NCBI RefSeq assembly: GCF_000987835.1
Contig: NZ_CP011308.1
Span: forward strand, 434,001 to 498,000
DNA: 64,000 nt
Direction: 5' to 3'
Origin: Sulfurovum lithotrophicum
GTDB taxonomy: Bacteria > Campylobacterota > Campylobacteria > Campylobacterales > Sulfurovaceae
Shown in pieces: positions 17,325 to 55,968 of the stretch. The translations under genes were made by a program, and so were the position numbers. Position 1 is the first letter of the stretch. Each line of letters starts with the position of its first letter. A model generated the notes under the pieces. That model had not been told where the DNA came from. It did not search any database and worked only from the letters and a program-made list of their open reading frames with translations.

Positions 17325-17742
17325 AACACAAATTGCAAAGATCGTAGAAGCCAACGGTGCAGCGCTTTACGATATTGAGACAGCAAATGAATTCGATGAA
17401 ACCATCTACCGTGTACTGATCACAAAAACAGGTGGTGTGAACCTTGATCTGTGTGCAACGATTTCCAATGAGCTTTCTCCTTTTCTGGATGTGCATCCAC
17501 CTATGAGCGGGCACTATCGCCTGGAGGTCAGCTCTCCCGGCATCGAGAGAAAACTCTCCAAGCCGGTACATTTTCAGAATGCCATCGGTGAAAAGGTCAA
17601 GGTGAAACTTCTGGGGGGAGACAAACTCAAAGGTGTCTTGAAAGCTGCCGATGATAAGGGTATTACTCTTGAAACAAAACAGGGTGAAGAGAGCTACTCA
17701 TACAGTGATCTTGGTACAGTAAAAACCTATTATGAGTGGTGA
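17314..17742 (+). CDS. rimP: Ribosome maturation factor RimP
   Basis: RimP is needed for 30S subunit assembly. The product is about 142 residues from ATG 17314, which has AGGA eight bases upstream; earlier in-frame ATGs at 17293 and 17305 lie within rbfA. The RimP core is clear: YDIETANEFDETIYRVLIT, LDLCATISNELSPFLD, and the signature LEVSSPGIERKLSKP around residues 71-86, followed by the SH3-like C-terminal domain. It closes the infB-rbfA-rimP assembly unit. A structured repeat begins at its stop codon. Confidence 0.93.
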   Translation: MNLETQIAKIVEANGAALYDIETANEFDETIYRVLITKTGGVNLDLCATISNELSPFLDVHPPMSGHYRLEVSSPGIERKLSKPVHFQNAIGEKVKVKLLGGDKLKGVLKAADDKGITLETKQGEESYSYSDLGTVKTYYEW

Positions 17743-17800
17743 GAACCGTTAAACAAAGGACAACTGCTTGTCCTTTGTAGGTTTGAAACCGAAGTGGTGG
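17740..17800 (+). repeat. Post-stop structured repeat, copy B (after rimP)
   Basis: Directly from the rimP stop the sequence reads TGAGAACCGTTAA, then a perfect 11-bp stem (17753-17763 with 17768-17778) closed by the loop CTGC, then TAGGTTTGAAACCGAAGTGGT. The same order occurs on the reverse strand after groEL, with GAACCGTAAA, the same CTGC loop flanked by AA and TT, and TAGGTTCGAAACCGAAGCGGT. Only the stem bases differ, and both stems remain fully paired. It may act as a terminator or processing hairpin, or be a dispersed repeat. There is no T-run. Confidence 0.75.
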
Positions 17801-17842
17801 AGCAAAGAGACCCACGAAGGCAAAGCATAAAAAGGAGTGGCA

Positions 17843-18835
17843 ATGAACGATGAATTTTATATGCAACTCGCACTCGATAAAGCCTGGGAGTATCAGCTTC
17901 TTACCTATCCGAACCCCGCCGTTGGTGCCGTAGTAACACTTAATGGTACTATTCTTGCTGTTGAAGCCCACAAAAAGGCAGGAACTTCACATGCAGAAGT
18001 ACTTGCCCTGCTTAAAGCCTATGAAACACTTTCCAAAAGTACTGTCGATTTCGACCGGATGGATGCCCAAAAGGCACATAATTTTCTTCATACCATACCT
18101 AAAGATTTCTTTTCGGAATGCAGTATTTACGTGACACTTGAACCCTGTTCCCATGAAGGTAGAACACCGTCCTGTGCAACACTTCTTGAAACACTGGATC
18201 TCAAAAAAGTCATCATCGGGACAAAAGACCCTATTGAAGGGCATGGCGGAGGAATGGAATACCTGAAACATTGTACTTCTGGTATACTTGAAGAGGCCTG
18301 CCAGGCACTCATAGAACCTTTTATGATATGGCAAAAGAGAGCTTTTGTACTTTTCAAGCTGGCACAGACGACCAATGGACGTATCGGCGGCGGGTATCTC
18401 AGTTCAAAAAGTTCACTCAGGCATGTGCATCAATTCAGAGAAAAATGTGATACGCTGCTCATTGGAGGCAATACGGTACGAACAGACAGGCCGACATTGG
18501 ATTGCCGATTTACAGGTGGTGCGGCACCGGATGTCATGATCTATTCAAAAAAAGATGATATAGACAGACAAATGCCACTTTTTACTATCAAGAATAGAAC
18601 GGTCACTGTTACAGATAATTTAAACTTTTTGGAAAAACCTTCTTTTGTTCTTGTGGAAGGGGGTGAGGGTATGCTTAATGCACTTAAAGAGAAAATAGAT
18701 TGGATGCTGATCTATCAGACACCTAAGCTCTCTACCAACCAATTATCCTATAATATCGACATGAATTTGGCATTTTTGCATCAGGATAAAAAAGATGTGG
18801 ATCTGTTACTATGGAGTAGAAGAATTGGGCATTGA
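17843..18835 (+). CDS. ribD: Riboflavin biosynthesis deaminase/reductase RibD
   Basis: RibD performs deamination and reduction of the pyrimidine intermediate in riboflavin synthesis. The N-terminal zinc deaminase has TSHAEVLAL (His and catalytic Glu near 47-49) and the ligand pair in LEPCSHEGRTPSC near 100-112, but with an extra stretch between them (about 66-90). The C-terminal reductase half shows LLIGGNTVRTDRPTLDCR and LVEGGEGMLN. The ATG at 17843 has AGGA six bases upstream and is preferred to the in-frame GTG two codons earlier. The end overlaps the ubiE-like gene. The reductase half is somewhat short (about 330 residues in total), though its main motifs are present. Confidence 0.88.
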   Translation: MNDEFYMQLALDKAWEYQLLTYPNPAVGAVVTLNGTILAVEAHKKAGTSHAEVLALLKAYETLSKSTVDFDRMDAQKAHNFLHTIPKDFFSECSIYVTLEPCSHEGRTPSCATLLETLDLKKVIIGTKDPIEGHGGGMEYLKHCTSGILEEACQALIEPFMIWQKRAFVLFKLAQTTNGRIGGGYLSSKSSLRHVHQFREKCDTLLIGGNTVRTDRPTLDCRFTGGAAPDVMIYSKKDDIDRQMPLFTIKNRTVTVTDNLNFLEKPSFVLVEGGEGMLNALKEKIDWMLIYQTPKLSTNQLSYNIDMNLAFLHQDKKDVDLLLWSRRIGH

Positions 18836-19562
18836 AAAACTGACGGACAAAGAGGAAAAACAGGAAAAGATCGTACATATGTTCGATGATATCGCATCGA
18901 CCTACGATAAAGCCAACAGGGTACTCAGTATGGGTATCGATATACAGTGGCGTAAAAAAGGTTGTGACAAAGCCTTTGAAATTCTGGGAAAAGAGAATCT
19001 GGGGCAGATCACAGATGTGGCGACAGGTACAGGTGACCTGCTGATCTATTGGAAAGAACAGGCGGCAAAGCAGGGTGTCAACATAGAGAAGTTCGTAGGG
19101 ATCGATCCCTCTGTAGGTATGCTTGATGTGGCCCGCCAAAAAGTGGATTTTGCCGAGTTCATAGAAGGCAAAGCACAGGAACTGCCTATAGGCGACGGGA
19201 GTACAGATGTGATCTCCATCTCTTACGGTATACGGAATGTCGTTGACAGAGTTGAGGCACTGGAGGAGTTTCACCGGGCATTGAGGCCGGAGGGTATTGT
19301 GATGATACTCGAGTTCACAAAACAGGAACGCAGCGGACTGGTAGACAAAGTGGTGGATTTCGGAATGAAAAACATACTTCCAAGAGTAGGCGGTTTTATC
19401 TCCAAAAACTATGAAGCATACAAATATCTGCCCGATTCCATAGAAGAGTTTCTGACTACGGAGATGTTGGCCAAAGAGTTGGAAGAGGCAGGTTTTGAAA
19501 TGAAATATACCAAGTCTTTTTCAATGGGTATTTCAACATTGCTGGTTGCACAAAAGAAATAA
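18825..19562 (+). CDS. ubiE: UbiE/MenG quinone C-methyltransferase
   Basis: This SAM-dependent enzyme adds the ring methyl group to demethylmenaquinone (or the ubiquinone precursor). Campylobacterota use menaquinone, so the menaquinone role is inferred. The family motifs are present: FDDIASTYDKANRVLSMGID, the SAM site DVATGTGDLLI, GIDPSVGMLDVARQK, and ISISYGIRNVVDR. I favour the TTG start at 18825, with GGAG eight bases upstream; the ATG at 18795 lies deep in ribD and its first residues are not family-like. Product about 245 residues, normal length. Confidence 0.9.
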   Translation: MGIEKLTDKEEKQEKIVHMFDDIASTYDKANRVLSMGIDIQWRKKGCDKAFEILGKENLGQITDVATGTGDLLIYWKEQAAKQGVNIEKFVGIDPSVGMLDVARQKVDFAEFIEGKAQELPIGDGSTDVISISYGIRNVVDRVEALEEFHRALRPEGIVMILEFTKQERSGLVDKVVDFGMKNILPRVGGFISKNYEAYKYLPDSIEEFLTTEMLAKELEEAGFEMKYTKSFSMGISTLLVAQKK

Positions 19563-19563
19563 C

Positions 19564-19628
19564 GTAGGGTGTGCAACTGCACACCAGATAAAAATGAATA
19601 CACAGAGGTGTGCTATTGCACACCCTAC
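19564..19628. repeat. Paired GTAGGGTGTGC palindromes (REP-like)
   Basis: Two 22-bp palindromic units (GTAGGGTGTGC...GCACACC) lie head to head, about 20 bases apart, filling the gap between the ubiE stop and xseA. The pair can fold as two small hairpins or one large one. Related pairs are at 26860-26947, with a single unit at 33113-33134. Confidence 0.8.
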
Positions 19629-19638
19629 AAGGTAAATA

Positions 19639-20898
19639 ATGTCAAATATGATGACAGTATCTTCCCTAAATACCAAGATAAAATCCCTGCTTGAAGCTAC
19701 CTTTATGCATATTCTTGTCGAGGGGGAAGTGGCTTCTGTGACCTATCACTCCTCAGGACATCTCTATTTTTCCATCAAGGATGACAAAAGTGCTATTAAA
19801 TGTGTGATGTGGCGATCTTCGGTTGCCAGGATGAAATTCCATATTGAAAAAGGGATGCACATCGTTGTGGAAGGTTCGGTCTCTGTCTATACGCCCAGAG
19901 GAGAATACCAGTTTCAGACGGTACGTATCGAACCCTATGGCAAAGGGGCACTGGCACTGGCCTATGAGCAGCTCAAAGAGCGTCTTAAAGCTAAAGGCTA
20001 TTTCGATGCCCATAGAAAAAAACCTATGCCCAAAAGCATACAGAAGATCGTACTGGTGACAGCCAAAGAGAGTGCTGCTCTTTACGATATGCTCAAAATT
20101 ATAGAGAAGCGCTGGCCACTGCTGGAAGTTACGATCGTTGATACGCTGGTACAGGGCGAGTCTGCAGCAGACCAGATCGCCAATTCTCTTCGCTATGCCG
20201 ACACTCTCGGTGCAGATGTCATTGTAGTTGGACGGGGTGGGGGCAGTACGGAAGATCTATGGTGTTTCAATGAAGAGCTTGTGGCTGATGCGATCTTCGC
20301 CATGCAGACGCCTGTGGTCTCTGCAGTCGGGCATGAAGTGGATGTACTTATCAGTGATCTTGTAGCGGACCTTCGTGCACCGACACCCAGTGCTGCGATG
20401 GAAATGATACTTCCCGATCTTCAGGAAATTCTTTACACTCTTTCGGAGTATGAGGAGCGTTTCAAACAGGTGATCACTTCCAGACTCAATCAATCGATAC
20501 GTGAACTCAAACATGTGGAGGAAATGCTTTATCGTTCATCACCGCTGCGAAGGCTGGAAGAGTCCAAAATGGAATTCAAACGTATGGAGGAAGAATTCAG
20601 ACGTATAATCTCCTATAGAATGGAACGTTTCGAATCAGCATTGCCAAGCATGAGAAATACTTACATACAGACAATGCAGTTCATACTACAGCGAAAAGAG
20701 CAGCATCTCGACCATTTGATGCAAAAATTCCAGATGAATGACCCGCGCTCACAGTGCCGTCCGGGATGGGCACAGATATCACAGAATGGAAAGCCCGTTG
20801 CACTTGCATCGATCGACAAAGATACACGTTTCATTCTTGAAGATGCCTCTATCAGAATCGAAGCGGTATGTGTCAATAAACAAAAATTGTATGAATAG
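19639..20898 (+). CDS. xseA: Exodeoxyribonuclease VII large subunit
   Basis: XseA with XseB forms exonuclease VII, which degrades single-stranded DNA in repair. The 419-residue protein has the N-terminal OB-fold (SLNTKIKSLLEATFMHILVEGE to about 100) and the catalytic domain with IVLVTAKESAALYDM, VVGRGGGSTEDLWCFN and SAVGHEVDVLISD around 140-240. A coiled-coil region (about 255-360) and a short basic end follow. AAGG stands six bases before ATG. xseB is not next to it. Confidence 0.93.
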   Translation: MSNMMTVSSLNTKIKSLLEATFMHILVEGEVASVTYHSSGHLYFSIKDDKSAIKCVMWRSSVARMKFHIEKGMHIVVEGSVSVYTPRGEYQFQTVRIEPYGKGALALAYEQLKERLKAKGYFDAHRKKPMPKSIQKIVLVTAKESAALYDMLKIIEKRWPLLEVTIVDTLVQGESAADQIANSLRYADTLGADVIVVGRGGGSTEDLWCFNEELVADAIFAMQTPVVSAVGHEVDVLISDLVADLRAPTPSAAMEMILPDLQEILYTLSEYEERFKQVITSRLNQSIRELKHVEEMLYRSSPLRRLEESKMEFKRMEEEFRRIISYRMERFESALPSMRNTYIQTMQFILQRKEQHLDHLMQKFQMNDPRSQCRPGWAQISQNGKPVALASIDKDTRFILEDASIRIEAVCVNKQKLYE

Positions 20899-20944
20899 GT
20901 ATAGGTATGAATAAGACAATGCGACCCTTTTACGTAGGGTATGA

Positions 20945-20950
20945 TATAAT
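20945..20950 (+). promoter_or_regulatory. Candidate -10 box for the GGDEF/EAL gene
   Basis: TATAAT lies 28 bases before the ATG at 20978. Just upstream an ACCCT...AGGGT inverted repeat (20924-20940) could end xseA transcription. No good -35 is seen. Confidence 0.4.
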
Positions 20951-20977
20951 GAGCATTCACTCTTCCAAAGGCAGGGT

Positions 20978-22792
20978 ATGGGTACTCAAGAAATAGGCGG
21001 AATCATCATGCAGCAATTTATTTCGATACCTTTTACTGTTTTGGCAGTCATACTGATCCTTTTGATATTGCTGTATATCTTTTTCATCAAGCATGCAAAA
21101 AATAAGCTTCAGGCATTGGCTTCTGGCGAGGTATCGGTGATGCAAAAGGCACTTGAAACCTGTACGGATGCCGTTCTGATCCTTTCAATGGATCAGAAAG
21201 TACTCTATGCCAATAAATCAATGAGAACATTACTCCATTTACATGAAAAGTATGAAAATAGTATTTTGAACAATACACTCAAGGTCAAGGTAGGAAAAGA
21301 GTGGCGTACATTGGGACGAGTGATCAAAGAGAAACTTTCAGAAAGTGAAGCTTCACATTTTACACTGCTTCGAACAGAACTGTTGACACAAGACAAGCAT
21401 GAATTGCCTGTCGATATTTGTATTGACAGGATAGAGGAAGAAGGTGTTTCAAGTCTGGTATGGAGTATTGTATCGATACATGATCTTAGTCAGAAAAAGG
21501 CAAAGGAGGATGCAGAATACTACCACCGGCTTACACACTTGCCAAACCAGATAAAAGCGCAGTATGACCTTAATGCGCTCAATGCCAGGCTGCATCTTTC
21601 AGATGACAAACTGGCTGTAATGGTGATCGATATTGACAACTTGTCTGTGTTGCGCTCTATCATAGGCGTTAGTCAGAGCAATTTGATACTCAAAAAGTTT
21701 GCCAGTTACCTTACCGAATTGTCAGTCAAGACAGGCTTTAAGACATACCATACCTTTTACAATAATTTTTTGCTGATCATTCCTGATGTGAAAGACATTA
21801 AAGAGTTGAATGATCTGGCACAGAGGATCCAAAAAGAGTTAAGCAGGTTCTATAAACTGGGTGAGAGCAGGCTACATCTTTCCGCATCCATAGGTATTGG
21901 TGTGTATCCGGATAGTGGTCCGGTTGCAAAACTCTTTGATCTTGCCTATAGGGCTTTGACCCAGGCAGAGAAGAGCGGCTATGGGAGAGTAGAGTTTTTC
22001 CTGAAGGAGACTGAAAAGAATAACTATGACGAACTGATACTCTACAATGATATGCATGCAGCCATAGAACGAAAACAATTTGAAGTGTACTATCAGCCCA
22101 TTGTCGACACCCGGAATAAAGAGGCAGTCAAGGCAGAAGCCCTGATCAGATGGCATCATCCTGAGTATGGACTGGTTCCTCCAGATCTTTTTGTTTCAAT
22201 TGCAGAAAAGACCGGTTTTATTGTAGAGTTGGGTAAATTTGTACTGGATGAGGTGCTTAAACAGCAAAAAAGATGGGAACTGTTCAAGTTCAGACAGATA
22301 GTCGTTTCGATCAACCTTTCTTTACTTGAGATAGAGACGGGCCATTTTGTTAAAGAGGTAGTCCAGCGTCTTGAGCACCATCAGGTCAACCCGGAGTTGA
22401 TCCAGTATGAGATAACCGAGGGTTTGGCAATGCAGAATGAGAAACATTCAGCCAAAATATTTTATGAACTTAGAAAACTGGGTATAGGTGTTGTACTGGA
22501 TGATTTTGGGACAGGCTATACCTCTTTTTCCTATCTGAAAAGGTTTCCGGCCAGTATTTTGAAAATTGACAAGATACTCATTGACAATATAGTGATGAAT
22601 GAGGAGGATCAGCGTATTGTAAAAGCGATTATCGATCTTGGACACAGTCTGGGAATGAAGGTGGTTGTCGAAGGGGTGGAAACCAGCCTAATGGTAGAGC
22701 TTCTTGAGGGGTATGGCTGTGATTACATGCAGGGATATTATTTCTCGAAACCCTTACCGGTCGTTGAGTTTCAGAAGATGTTGCGGCAATAG
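20978..22792 (+). CDS. Membrane PAS-GGDEF(degenerate)-EAL protein, likely c-di-GMP phosphodiesterase
   Basis: The 604-residue protein has one membrane helix (about 15-38), a PAS-like domain (about 52-170), a GGDEF-fold domain (about 185-345) and an EAL domain (about 355-600). The cyclase signature is lost: the expected GGDEF reads FYNNF at 260-264, so both acidic residues are Asn. The EAL domain keeps the catalytic set: EALIRW (E387), SINLS (N446), EITEG (E478), DDFGTGY (508-514), LKIDK (K529) and VEGVET (E565). It should therefore hydrolyse c-di-GMP, perhaps with the GGDEF part as a GTP sensor. The PAS input is unknown. An ATG at 21008 is an alternative start. It converges on groEL. Confidence 0.87.
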   Translation: MGTQEIGGIIMQQFISIPFTVLAVILILLILLYIFFIKHAKNKLQALASGEVSVMQKALETCTDAVLILSMDQKVLYANKSMRTLLHLHEKYENSILNNTLKVKVGKEWRTLGRVIKEKLSESEASHFTLLRTELLTQDKHELPVDICIDRIEEEGVSSLVWSIVSIHDLSQKKAKEDAEYYHRLTHLPNQIKAQYDLNALNARLHLSDDKLAVMVIDIDNLSVLRSIIGVSQSNLILKKFASYLTELSVKTGFKTYHTFYNNFLLIIPDVKDIKELNDLAQRIQKELSRFYKLGESRLHLSASIGIGVYPDSGPVAKLFDLAYRALTQAEKSGYGRVEFFLKETEKNNYDELILYNDMHAAIERKQFEVYYQPIVDTRNKEAVKAEALIRWHHPEYGLVPPDLFVSIAEKTGFIVELGKFVLDEVLKQQKRWELFKFRQIVVSINLSLLEIETGHFVKEVVQRLEHHQVNPELIQYEITEGLAMQNEKHSAKIFYELRKLGIGVVLDDFGTGYTSFSYLKRFPASILKIDKILIDNIVMNEEDQRIVKAIIDLGHSLGMKVVVEGVETSLMVELLEGYGCDYMQGYYFSKPLPVVEFQKMLRQ

Positions 22793-22832
22793 AAGTTTGT
22801 GTTGTTTTAACGGCTTTCACAGTTTCGACACT

Positions 22833-22961
22833 ATAGACGTGAAACTATTCACGTCTATTTACGTATCTTCCAGCCTACGCGGCTACATTCCCGATGGTCA
22901 TTCCGACCGCTTCGGTTTCGAACCTAAAAACGTGAAGCAGTTCACGTTTTCTTTACGGTTC

Positions 22962-22962
<1 letters not shown>
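22833..22962 (-). repeat. Post-stop structured repeat, copy A (after groEL)
   Basis: Read on the reverse strand from the groEL stop it gives TGAGAACCGTAAA, a perfect 10-bp stem with CTGC loop (22950-22927), then TAGGTTCGAAACCGAAGCGGT and about 65 further bases. A second perfect hairpin (11-bp stem, 22858-22833) shares the ACGTGAA/TTCACGT arms. The first 60 bases match copy B after rimP except for the stem bases. It fills the convergent gap between groEL and the EAL gene and could act as a terminator. Confidence 0.75.
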
Positions 22963-24596
<1,634 letters not shown>

Positions 24597-26859: not shown

Positions 26860-26863
<4 letters not shown>

Positions 26864-26947
26864 GGTGTGCAATTGCACACCAATTTAAATATGATCAAAA
26901 ATATAACACAATTATTTATATATGAGGTGTGCAACTGCACACCCTAC
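26860..26947. repeat. Paired GTAGGGTGTGC palindromes overlapping the serS stop
   Basis: Two palindromic units of the family seen at 19564 lie head to head, separated by about 44 AT-rich bases, in the convergent gap between serS and leuA. The serS TAG stop is bases 2-4 of the first unit. Confidence 0.8.
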
Positions 26948-50101: not shown

Positions 50102-50928
50102 TATTTATGCTTTATGAACAGATGTGTTACGTACATACCAAGATACTTTTTGATAATGTTTTTGACAAAGATCTTTGTTTTCTGCATTTTAAAATAGAGT
50201 TTCTCTCTATCGCTTGTTTCTTCCGTACTGACTTTCCTGTATTCGTCAATGACCCGCATTCTATCCGTGTAGGAGACACCGCCGATATATATTCTGGCGA
50301 TGGGCATGGGTATGTATTTGAATATGAGACCGTTCAGATAGGCATGATAGATAAAATGAAAATCGGAAGCGATCCTGTAGCTACGGTCAAAAAGGTATTT
50401 TTTATGGTAGGAAACCGGAGAAAAGGTGCTTTGATGCGAGAACTGCATCCCTTTCCAGAGTGCAGTGGGATCATAGGAAACCTTGGAATATTTTTCAAAA
50501 CCTGGGTAGACATCTATGCTGTCGCCAAAGATGAGTGTATTATCCGTAAAATCATGCTTTTTAAAAATGTTGGAGAGAACATGACTGTCGGCAAAGGTGT
50601 CCTCGGCATTCATGAAGTTGATCCACTTTCCCTTTGCCAGTTTGATGGCTTTGTTCATCGCATCGTATATGCCGTTGTCCTTTTCACTGACCCAGTAGTC
50701 GATGTTATGATCATATTTTTGAATGACCTCTACAGTGCCGTCCATTGAACCACCGTCAATGACAATGTACTCAATATGTTCATAGTCCTGATCAATGACA
50801 CTTCGGATCGTATTTTCAATACCGTTCACAGTATTGAAAACGACGGTCACGACAGTAATAAGAGGTAACTGGGAATGATGATCTTCATCGACGGTTTCTT
50901 TTTGAATAATGTGCTCCTTTGCTCTCAT
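50101..50928 (-). CDS. GT2 glycosyltransferase (WcaA-like), paralogue of 55240-55968
   Basis: The 275-residue GT-A enzyme has ITVVTVVFNTVNGIENTIRS, IDGGSMDGT near 57-65, and the conserved EKDNGIYDAMNKAIKLAKG and FMNAEDTF stretch near 80-112 with the metal-binding region. It is clearly similar over most of its length to the GT2 at 55240, so the locus contains a duplicated transferase. It is followed by the GT4 with a one-base overlap. Basic C-terminus of about 30 residues may contact the membrane. Confidence 0.82.
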   Translation of the reverse strand: MRAKEHIIQKETVDEDHHSQLPLITVVTVVFNTVNGIENTIRSVIDQDYEHIEYIVIDGGSMDGTVEVIQKYDHNIDYWVSEKDNGIYDAMNKAIKLAKGKWINFMNAEDTFADSHVLSNIFKKHDFTDNTLIFGDSIDVYPGFEKYSKVSYDPTALWKGMQFSHQSTFSPVSYHKKYLFDRSYRIASDFHFIYHAYLNGLIFKYIPMPIARIYIGGVSYTDRMRVIDEYRKVSTEETSDREKLYFKMQKTKIFVKNIIKKYLGMYVTHLFIKHK

Positions 50929-55243: not shown

Positions 55244-55968
55244 TTTATCCGCTTTTTTATTTTATTCAAATAGTATTGTACTATTGTATTCAGATAATAT
55301 TTTTTTACTTTGAAACTGTTATGGTATTGCGATACCACTTTGTATCGTTCCTTCGTTCTTCCCATGAAATTGATATCCGAGAAGCCGCCGGCAAGAAATA
55401 CCGCTATGGGAAAATCGACTTTGAGAAACTTTTTGCCTTCCATATACCGTGAAAAGTAGTTTTCATAATCACATACTATCTTATAGGCCAGATCATAGGG
55501 TTTGTCTTTCATGAGGTTAGTTCTGGAAAACAGACTTTGATGGGAAAAACATATCTTTTGCCACATCAGTTCCAGAGGTCTGGTCTTGACAAGATGCTTT
55601 GTGTCGCTATCTTTCCAGTAATGTTCACCGTAAATGAAATCATAGTCCGAAACGTCGTGCCCTTCAAATATTTTTGACAATACATCATCGGAGGCAAAGC
55701 TGTCCCCGGCATTCATGAAATTGATCCACTCACCTGTTGCCATCTGTATGGCTTTGTTCATAGCATCATAGATCCCCTTGTCTTTTTCACTCACTATGAC
55801 ATCGATCTGGTCTTCATACTTGTTGATGATATCTAGTGTGTTGTCTTTTGATGCACCGTCGATGATGATGTACTCTATATGAGGATACGTTTGGGACAGA
55901 ACGCTTTTGATCGTTTCTTCTATAGTATCTTCGCAGTTATACACAACGGTTACGACAGTGACTGTCAT
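55240..55968 (-). CDS. GT2 glycosyltransferase, paralogue of 50101-50928
   Basis: The 242-residue GT-A protein shares VSEKDKGIYDAMNKAIQMATGEWINF-like core stretches (about 73-105) and SHQSLFSR with the GT2 at 50101. Its opening VTVVTVVYNCEDTIEETIKSVL and IIDGASKDNT near 37-46 are typical. It overlaps both neighbours by four bases. Two related transferases at two ends of the locus suggest duplication and possibly similar linkages made at different positions. Confidence 0.83.
   Translation of the reverse strand: MTVTVVTVVYNCEDTIEETIKSVLSQTYPHIEYIIIDGASKDNTLDIINKYEDQIDVIVSEKDKGIYDAMNKAIQMATGEWINFMNAGDSFASDDVLSKIFEGHDVSDYDFIYGEHYWKDSDTKHLVKTRPLELMWQKICFSHQSLFSRTNLMKDKPYDLAYKIVCDYENYFSRYMEGKKFLKVDFPIAVFLAGGFSDINFMGRTKERYKVVSQYHNSFKVKKYYLNTIVQYYLNKIKKRIK

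Follow-up and report, generated by a model that had tools for sequence, protein, structure and literature searches.

A folded interspersed repeat of Sulfurovum and other Campylobacterota that brings its own stop codon to the ends of genes

The repeats closest to the one described here are the GTAG and CGTC repetitive extragenic palindromes (REPs), the YPAL sequences of Yersinia, and bacterial miniature inverted-repeat transposable elements (MITEs). In the accessible sections of Di Nocera et al. 2013 (PMC3733652), REPs are interspersed palindromes found mostly downstream of genes, the termini of the GTAG class often supply the stop codon TAG, and Sulfurovum NBC37-1 is reported to contain both classes. 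YPAL, or RU-2, is presented in the available text of Delihas 2007 (PMC2229807) as a folded repeat of ~168 bp with internal inverted repeats and termini that lack TA; empty and filled sites are recorded, co-translation with upstream genes is reported, and target duplications span 3-26 bp. ERIC (RU-1), RUP and other MITEs are, according to excerpts of PMC2229807 and PMC2759123, small, non-autonomous, folded repeats able to fuse to the ends of open reading frames (ORFs). Here, we describe an interspersed repeat of ~80-90 nt in Sulfurovum lithotrophicum. The stretch analyzed, ‘the window’, comprises 64,000 nt of this organism's 2.22-Mb, one-contig genome (C1:434001-498000), and holds two copies that start at the stop codons of rimP (copy A, 17740-17821, + strand) and groEL (copy B, 22964-22873, - strand); gene names were assigned by recognition of the proteins. 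We think it probable that the element is a non-autonomous mobile palindromic repeat of the Campylobacterota that enters at ORF ends and is folded on the coding strand, and its placement is best read as REP- or YPAL-like.

The element consists of TGA followed by G-NNN-C, GTTAA, an 11-bp hairpin with the loop CTGC, A, G-NNN-Y, GRAACCG and a second stem. The two window copies are recovered as 60-nt repeat arms of 80% identity (17739-17798 / 22906-22965), and their inner stems, which differ in sequence, pair over 10-11 bp around CTGC, as a preliminary description of this DNA had proposed. A 14-base core search yielded further copies from the same genome (G000), and nine copies align on a common TGA, G-NNN-C, GT(T)AA, 11-bp CTGC-loop hairpin, A, G-NNN-Y and GAAACC. 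The letters beside TGA, at first taken to be a shared sequence, are indeed present in both window copies and are not fixed. They belong to an outer stem, GNNNC/GNNNY, whose arms covary and which seemed constant because both window copies have AACC/GGTT; among the nine copies the outer-arm letters are AACC, ACGC, CAGC, ATGC, AAGC, CACC and CCCC, and their partners vary too. Standalone copies start with TGAG and end with GGC(TG). A second hairpin, at first placed downstream of copy A, occurs at the groEL copy (TAGACGTGAATAGTTTCACGTCTA, within 22870-22810, - strand) and is missing after the rimP copy. From the nine copies we built model R1 (59 positions), which finds 22 matches in its own genome at E<=1.5e-5, nine of them by construction; genus-wide, its distinct matches number 143, spread over 95 loci.

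Covariation establishes the fold. Double changes occur in 12 of 16 pairs among the nine copies, and double compensatory changes in 16 of 22 pairs among 47 standalone copies, in which 98.7% of the cells are paired; these 47 were taken, for their fit to one second-domain pattern, from a set of 79 standalone copies. None of 500 shuffles equaled the covariation of the 47-copy alignment, and no slide came close. When 84,980 named genomes were scanned with a pattern, the arm positions that it left free proved to be paired in 419 of 441 cells across 63 distinct sequences, against a maximum of 254 paired cells in 300 shuffles. The earlier suspicion that stem changes preserve pairing is therefore borne out. 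Within the second domain, the stem GYGG/CCRC covaries in two of its four pairs; the proposed CC/GG pairs are invariant, hence uninformative. Unpaired letters are more constant: among 139 distinct model matches the loop is CTGC in 101 and GCAG in none, a tally that the training of the model on CTGC favors, and the asymmetric internal loop is GTTAA in 66, GTAA in 24 and GTAAA in 13, facing A in 134. With the two closing pairs excluded, G-T pairs outnumber A-C pairs on the coding strand by 34:17 (p 0.012), which weakly favors this strand as the one to fold. The predicted folding of copy B with its neighbor beats 200 of 200 shuffles (z -4.64), and that of copy A 195 of 200 (z -2.19).

The element occupies the 3' ends of ORFs in the sense direction, after a weakly constrained D-K-R (A/G/T, G/T, A/G). 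Among 96 first copies, 45 have as their first codon (43 TGA, 2 TAA) the very stop of an ORF of at least 70 codons; upstream of these 45, position -3 is C once, position -2 is G in 25, and position -1 is a purine in 43. Collapsing the copies gives 40 gene loci: the stop is exact in 23 and 4-20 nt inside the element in 11, and the element begins 4-36 nt past the stop in three and farther away in three. No ORF end is near 13 of the 88 standalone copies used (79 of the 96 first copies plus nine chosen loci, with 17 copies inside an 84-nt palindrome excluded), and to these the early claim of stop placement does not extend. Placement at stops of unrelated genes, as originally noticed, otherwise holds up. 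From the D-K-R^T sites in 58 window ORFs, exact and downstream positions are expected at 14:161 and were observed at 23:3 (p about 1e-22, with loci treated as independent and ORFs crude). Frame 0 applies in 23 of the 34 loci with the stop inside the element (p 4.5e-5), and is stopped at once in all 79 standalone copies, for which the model selects. The pattern scan agrees in kind: among 76 hits evaluated (from 80 listed loci of 89 found; the genomes overlap the earlier sets and are not collapsed by gene), the stop is exact in 33, inside the element in three, up to 40 nt upstream of it in one and farther in 11. Of 15 loci in G000 whose gene setting we read ourselves, 10 lie between co-directional genes, four between convergent genes and one in a divergent gap. 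Enrichment at exact stops is far beyond what tolerance provides. Since tolerance alone fails to explain the exact position, either entry is steered to stops or mainly such copies are retained, and the data fit both. An absence of further copies, unpaired stems and random placement, any of which would have spoken against the pattern first described, were looked for and not found.

All six of the gene panels that we compiled (groEL, fabG, grpE, rimP, radA and an nrdB-like gene; 41 genomes of the genus searched, 22-38 with a match, at most 30 loci per gene) contain filled and empty alleles at one codon. At groEL, fabG, rimP and radA, the empty stops are TAA 68, TAG 16 and TGA 1 (n=85), and the filled stops TGA 25 and TAA 3 (n=28). 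Because empty sites mostly carry TAA or TAG and filled sites mostly TGA, the element brings its own stop. The early suggestion of a mobile element that uses the stop codon accordingly holds in that sites differ by presence and absence, and fails in that no existing stop is relied upon. For rimP and radA, 27 and 28 of the 30 loci entered the tally and tree, with presence set by us from matches and sequences. The stop tally omits two radA remnants, which the tree treats as lacking the element; sites with degenerate copies, at groEL in G015 and G016 and at fabG in G012, count as filled, and the radA copy of G001 lies outside the panel. On a 29-genome, four-protein tree, presence changes at least five times at groEL, at least five at fabG, at least three at rimP and at least three at radA, with 8 of 27, 9 of 25, 6 of 23 and 3 of 26 genomes filled, respectively. 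Parsimony alone cannot tell gains from losses or exchange; the TAA and TAG codons at empty sites argue against frequent loss. An all-versus-all comparison of 278 neighboring ORFs gave, among the clusters of at least three listed, orthologous neighborhoods and one adjacent-paralogue pair.

Individual junctions add detail. At rimP, 13 of 20 empty relatives end in TGG-Asn-stop, and in G014 and G049 TGAG follows directly after TGG. At the right junctions of the radA copies of G055 and G014, AA.. resumes after GGCTG(G), which fits entry at T^AA. The radA copies of G000 and G046 are truncated remnants that show decay through deletion. At grpE, the left arm of the element doubles as the native protein end (..STAK* or ..STCK*), the native codons are repeated to its right, and in G018 and G022 a synonymous ACC/ACT difference in the gene is mirrored in the other arm. 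At the nrdB-like locus of G024, G020 and G015, an unusual T at position 4 (TGATCTCC) faces A in the partner arm, and empty sites in G000 and G052 have TGATCT at the stop. Both loci may reflect either entry through shared letters or arms fitted later, by selection or by template switching.

The left end, TGAGNNNCGTTAA, supplies an immediate TGA, so that the protein ends at or near its original end. Because the left end holds a ready-made stop codon, entry at ORF ends should do little harm. As we picture it, insertion would split the stop codon after its T, ahead of AA, as two radA junctions suggest, and a borrowed enzyme would move the element while it is a folded single strand. The coding strand, as mRNA or as single-stranded DNA, folds into the outer 5-bp stem, the asymmetric internal loop, the 11-bp CTGC hairpin and the second domain; helix letters drift jointly and unpaired letters stay. 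A partner that reads shape, in the moving single-stranded DNA or later in the mRNA, would leave just such fixed unpaired letters and matched, drifting helices, and the effect at the 3' end of the mRNA may be neutral to mildly useful.

Several observations weigh against a mobile element of this kind. No mobilizing enzyme was found: 12 Y1 transposase loci, drawn from 35 listed Y1 matches in six of seven genomes, were scanned with R1, whose best match there, at E 0.23, is not credible, and a Y1/RAYT partner is ruled out for these 12 loci. Standalone copies have no terminal inverted repeats. Target duplication is evident at neither rimP nor radA and seems not to be general, though GAGCACCGC flanks the grpE copy on both sides. 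Mean likeness is 0.825 for copies at the same locus, 0.739 for copies in the same genome and 0.731 for unrelated copies; since same-locus copies are more alike, many were inherited rather than freshly inserted, and loss or between-species gene exchange could account for part of the recurrence at one stop. By a crude ORF rule, 28 of the 76 pattern hits have no ORF end nearby. Lastly, no more than 32 of the 79 standalone copies have stops in all three frames within 36 nt, with frame 1 stopped in 56 and frame 2 in 41; the idea of the element as a general three-frame stop was dropped, and the exact-stop result does not depend on it.

How else might such an element arise? It is possible, if rather doubtful, that it is a cis-acting mRNA element under selection, in which the fold behind the stop acts on the upstream message, and placement and covariation reflect function rather than an insertion rule. 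Protection of the 3' end, insulation of the next cistron, and sensing of the terminating ribosome through melting of the outer stem are variants of this explanation that are, jointly, just as doubtful. The surplus of exact stops over the next 40 nt, for which tolerance is insufficient, is in keeping with a function, as are the 10 co-directional settings of 15 in G000, the coding-strand G-T excess, and same-locus copies that differ in both arms (ACGC/GCGT, CAGC/GCTG and ACCC/GGGT at fabG). Single-stranded DNA is also compatible with G-T pairs, however, and the element is absent from most genomes at each of four stops, follows no common gene class apparent by eye, and has 17 copies in an intergenic palindrome and 13 standalone copies near no ORF end. 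Another thought, which we consider unlikely, is stop-codon homing without an intron: an element with a built-in stop that no long DNA target would guide to sites of translation termination, but the message, an R-loop, or single-stranded DNA of the coding strand in the wake of the ribosome.

Matched arms could also come from mutation rather than selection, if template switching during replication copied one arm onto the other (quasipalindrome correction) and no fold were needed. The process is documented (PMC8604942, PMC7202029, in the portions available), and the grpE copies of G018 and G022 have, as their 5' arm, host coding sequence whose ACC/ACT difference is tracked by the 3' arm. Quasipalindrome correction also inverts the spacer, according to the accessible part of PMC8604942, whereas the loop here is not inverted (CTGC 101 versus GCAG 0 of 139, with the training bias already mentioned); the asymmetric internal loop is retained, too, and full correction would erase the asymmetry. 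We judge this account improbable. More improbable still is an ordinary intrinsic terminator, a proposal of the preliminary description in whose favor stands a hairpin, with some T after it, located behind genes. Our scan for a GC-rich stem plus T run lists neither inner hairpin and finds four sites against 4.2 expected; one of these (22895-22909) falls in the second domain of copy B, on the strand opposite groEL. The stem of copy A is followed by TTTGTAGG, copies occur between co-directional neighbors such as grpE-dnaK and rimP-ribD, and the conserved loop, internal loop and second domain would be unnecessary for termination. The terminator interpretation was rejected. We also discarded a bacterial selenocysteine insertion sequence (SECIS) or UGA readthrough: copy B reads TGA GAA CCG TAA, other GTAAA copies likewise, and copy A is open past TGA, so no open frame is conserved behind the UGA. 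A resemblance of TGA-stem-GAAAC to hammerhead or K-turn motifs, judged by eye only, was likewise rejected; the upstream letters are not conserved.

Features of the two window copies (positions are those of the window)
Feature	Position	Strand	Evidence
TGA, rimP stop, supplied by the element	17740..17742	+	ORF end; in the genus, 20 empty rimP sites TAA/TAG, 7 filled TGA
Copy A, outer stem, 5' arm GAACC	17743..17747	+	Pairs with 17780-17784; covariation among copies
Copy A, inner stem, 5' arm ACAAAGGACAA	17753..17763	+	Pairs with 17768-17778
Copy A, loop CTGC	17764..17767	+	CTGC in 101/139 distinct model matches
Copy A, inner stem, 3' arm TTGTCCTTTGT	17768..17778	+	Pairs with 17753-17763
Copy A, outer stem, 3' arm GGTTT	17780..17784	+	Pairs with 17743-17747
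Copy A, second domain GAAACCGAAGTGG...CCACGAAGGC	17785..17821	+	Stem GYGG/CCRC: 2/4 pairs covary, 2 invariant
TGA, groEL stop, supplied by the element	22962..22964	-	ORF end; 22 empty groEL sites TAA/TAG
Copy B, TGA, outer stem and inner hairpin + GAAACCGAAGCGGT	22906..22964	-	Model R1 match, 87.3 bits (G000:C1:456906-456964)
Copy B, second domain, long variant GAAACCGAAGCGG...CCGCGTAGGC	22873..22919	-	Overlaps the model R1 match
Copy B, extra downstream hairpin module, outer GATAC/GTGTC, loop TAGT	22810..22870	-	R1 match, E=1.4e-7 (G000:C1:456810-456870)

The element is not confined to Sulfurovum. Among 298 genomes of the phylum (at least 90% complete), 54, belonging to 29 of 58 genera, contain a match at E<=1e-5. 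Within the genus, some genomes have 15 or more matches and two, G019 and G251, have none. Of 31 loci then chosen, 29 were read: nine, in six other families, lie on exact stops, two of them behind a groEL-like end (..MPGMM at L341 and L343, of another family). Three loci of other families (L062, L063 and L357) have a different second domain (GCACGRCG...) and, by our rule, no ORF end nearby; L062 and L357 begin with GGAG, not TGAG. A strict form of the pattern found 89 stretches in the 84,980 named genomes, and the 80 listed all bear Campylobacterota names. Carriage on viral contigs was rejected, one pattern having no exact match in IMG/VR.

In G009 and G002, the unit is nested in a separate intergenic palindrome, GGTTTCACTCGAT...ATCGAGTGAAACC, which accounts for the 17 copies set apart above and also exists as an insert-free, 84-nt form (L314-L333). 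This palindrome has 13-bp terminal inverted repeats and more than 20 copies per genome, both forms counted, and some copies have matched arm variants (AGGTGCA/TGCACCT, AGATGCA/TGCATCT). A larger, autonomous form of it was rejected on the paired ends of four genomes, which start ~70 or ~150 nt apart. Two loci of another genus look similar (L338, L342). Parts of the element are also found in series: four 50-bp tandem units from its second domain lie at G000:C1:156900-157110 (L022), and head-to-tail, multi-unit arrays at grpE-dnaK of G015 (L190 / L136) and at fabG of G053 (L122). GTAG REPs proper are present in the window beside the element family (GTAGGGTGTGCAAYTGCACACC and variants, at 19564-19585, 19607-19628, 26860-26881 and 26926-26947), and the same REP, in inverted orientation, flanks a Y1 transposase match at G000:C1:1537733 (L313). 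The window also contains a 257-nt direct repeat, 71% identical, at 50522-50778 and 55625-55881.

Small palindromic repeats often accumulate downstream of genes, and it has long been asked whether tolerance, targeting or function puts them there. For this element, experiments could tell the three apart, given its exact position, the weakly constrained target letters, the many filled and empty alleles at the same core-gene stops, and the strong covariation of its fold. Should targeting prove real, it would offer a route into genomes that largely spares host protein. No named family had been recognized at the outset, and this stands: Rfam 15, group II introns included, gave no match at the element, for the window at gathering threshold and for seven loci at E<=5. 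A piece of a group II intron was rejected on these grounds. A group II intron is reported to reside in the groEL termination codon of Azotobacter, likewise a mobile element in the stop of groEL; our element is far too short to be one. Integron attC sites combine variable stems with conserved unpaired letters and lie close behind stop codons, and the element differs from them in sitting, in our panels, behind genes common to the genus. YPAL, a subject also of De Gregorio et al. 2006, is reported to insert close behind stop codons.

Compared by description only, YPAL and the element are alike in being folded repeats with empty and filled, stop-adjacent sites (the last reportedly so for YPAL); the available text on YPAL does not name the exact stop codon as target, whereas the element is placed exactly there. 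The terminal inverted repeats and TA termini that the excerpts give as typical of MITEs are both lacking in standalone copies, and MITE-like terminal inverted repeats are present in the 84-nt palindrome that carries some copies. Among the matches listed in a search of the literature on Sulfurovum, Campylobacterota and Epsilonproteobacteria, which leaves subscription journals mostly uncovered, there is no description of the element, and the closest is PMC3733652; a paper on pneumococcal repeats is listed as well. REPs, in the sections of that paper at hand, are 20-40 bp long and marked by a GTAG or CGTC tag; the element is 80-90 nt long, has two domains, starts with TGAG, ends with GGC, and bears no tag. 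Some GTAG REP copies flank a RAYT/Y1 gene, as at L313, and the element is not found at the 12 Y1 loci scanned. Palindromic repeats that lie behind genes and lend them a stop are, as a class, already known.

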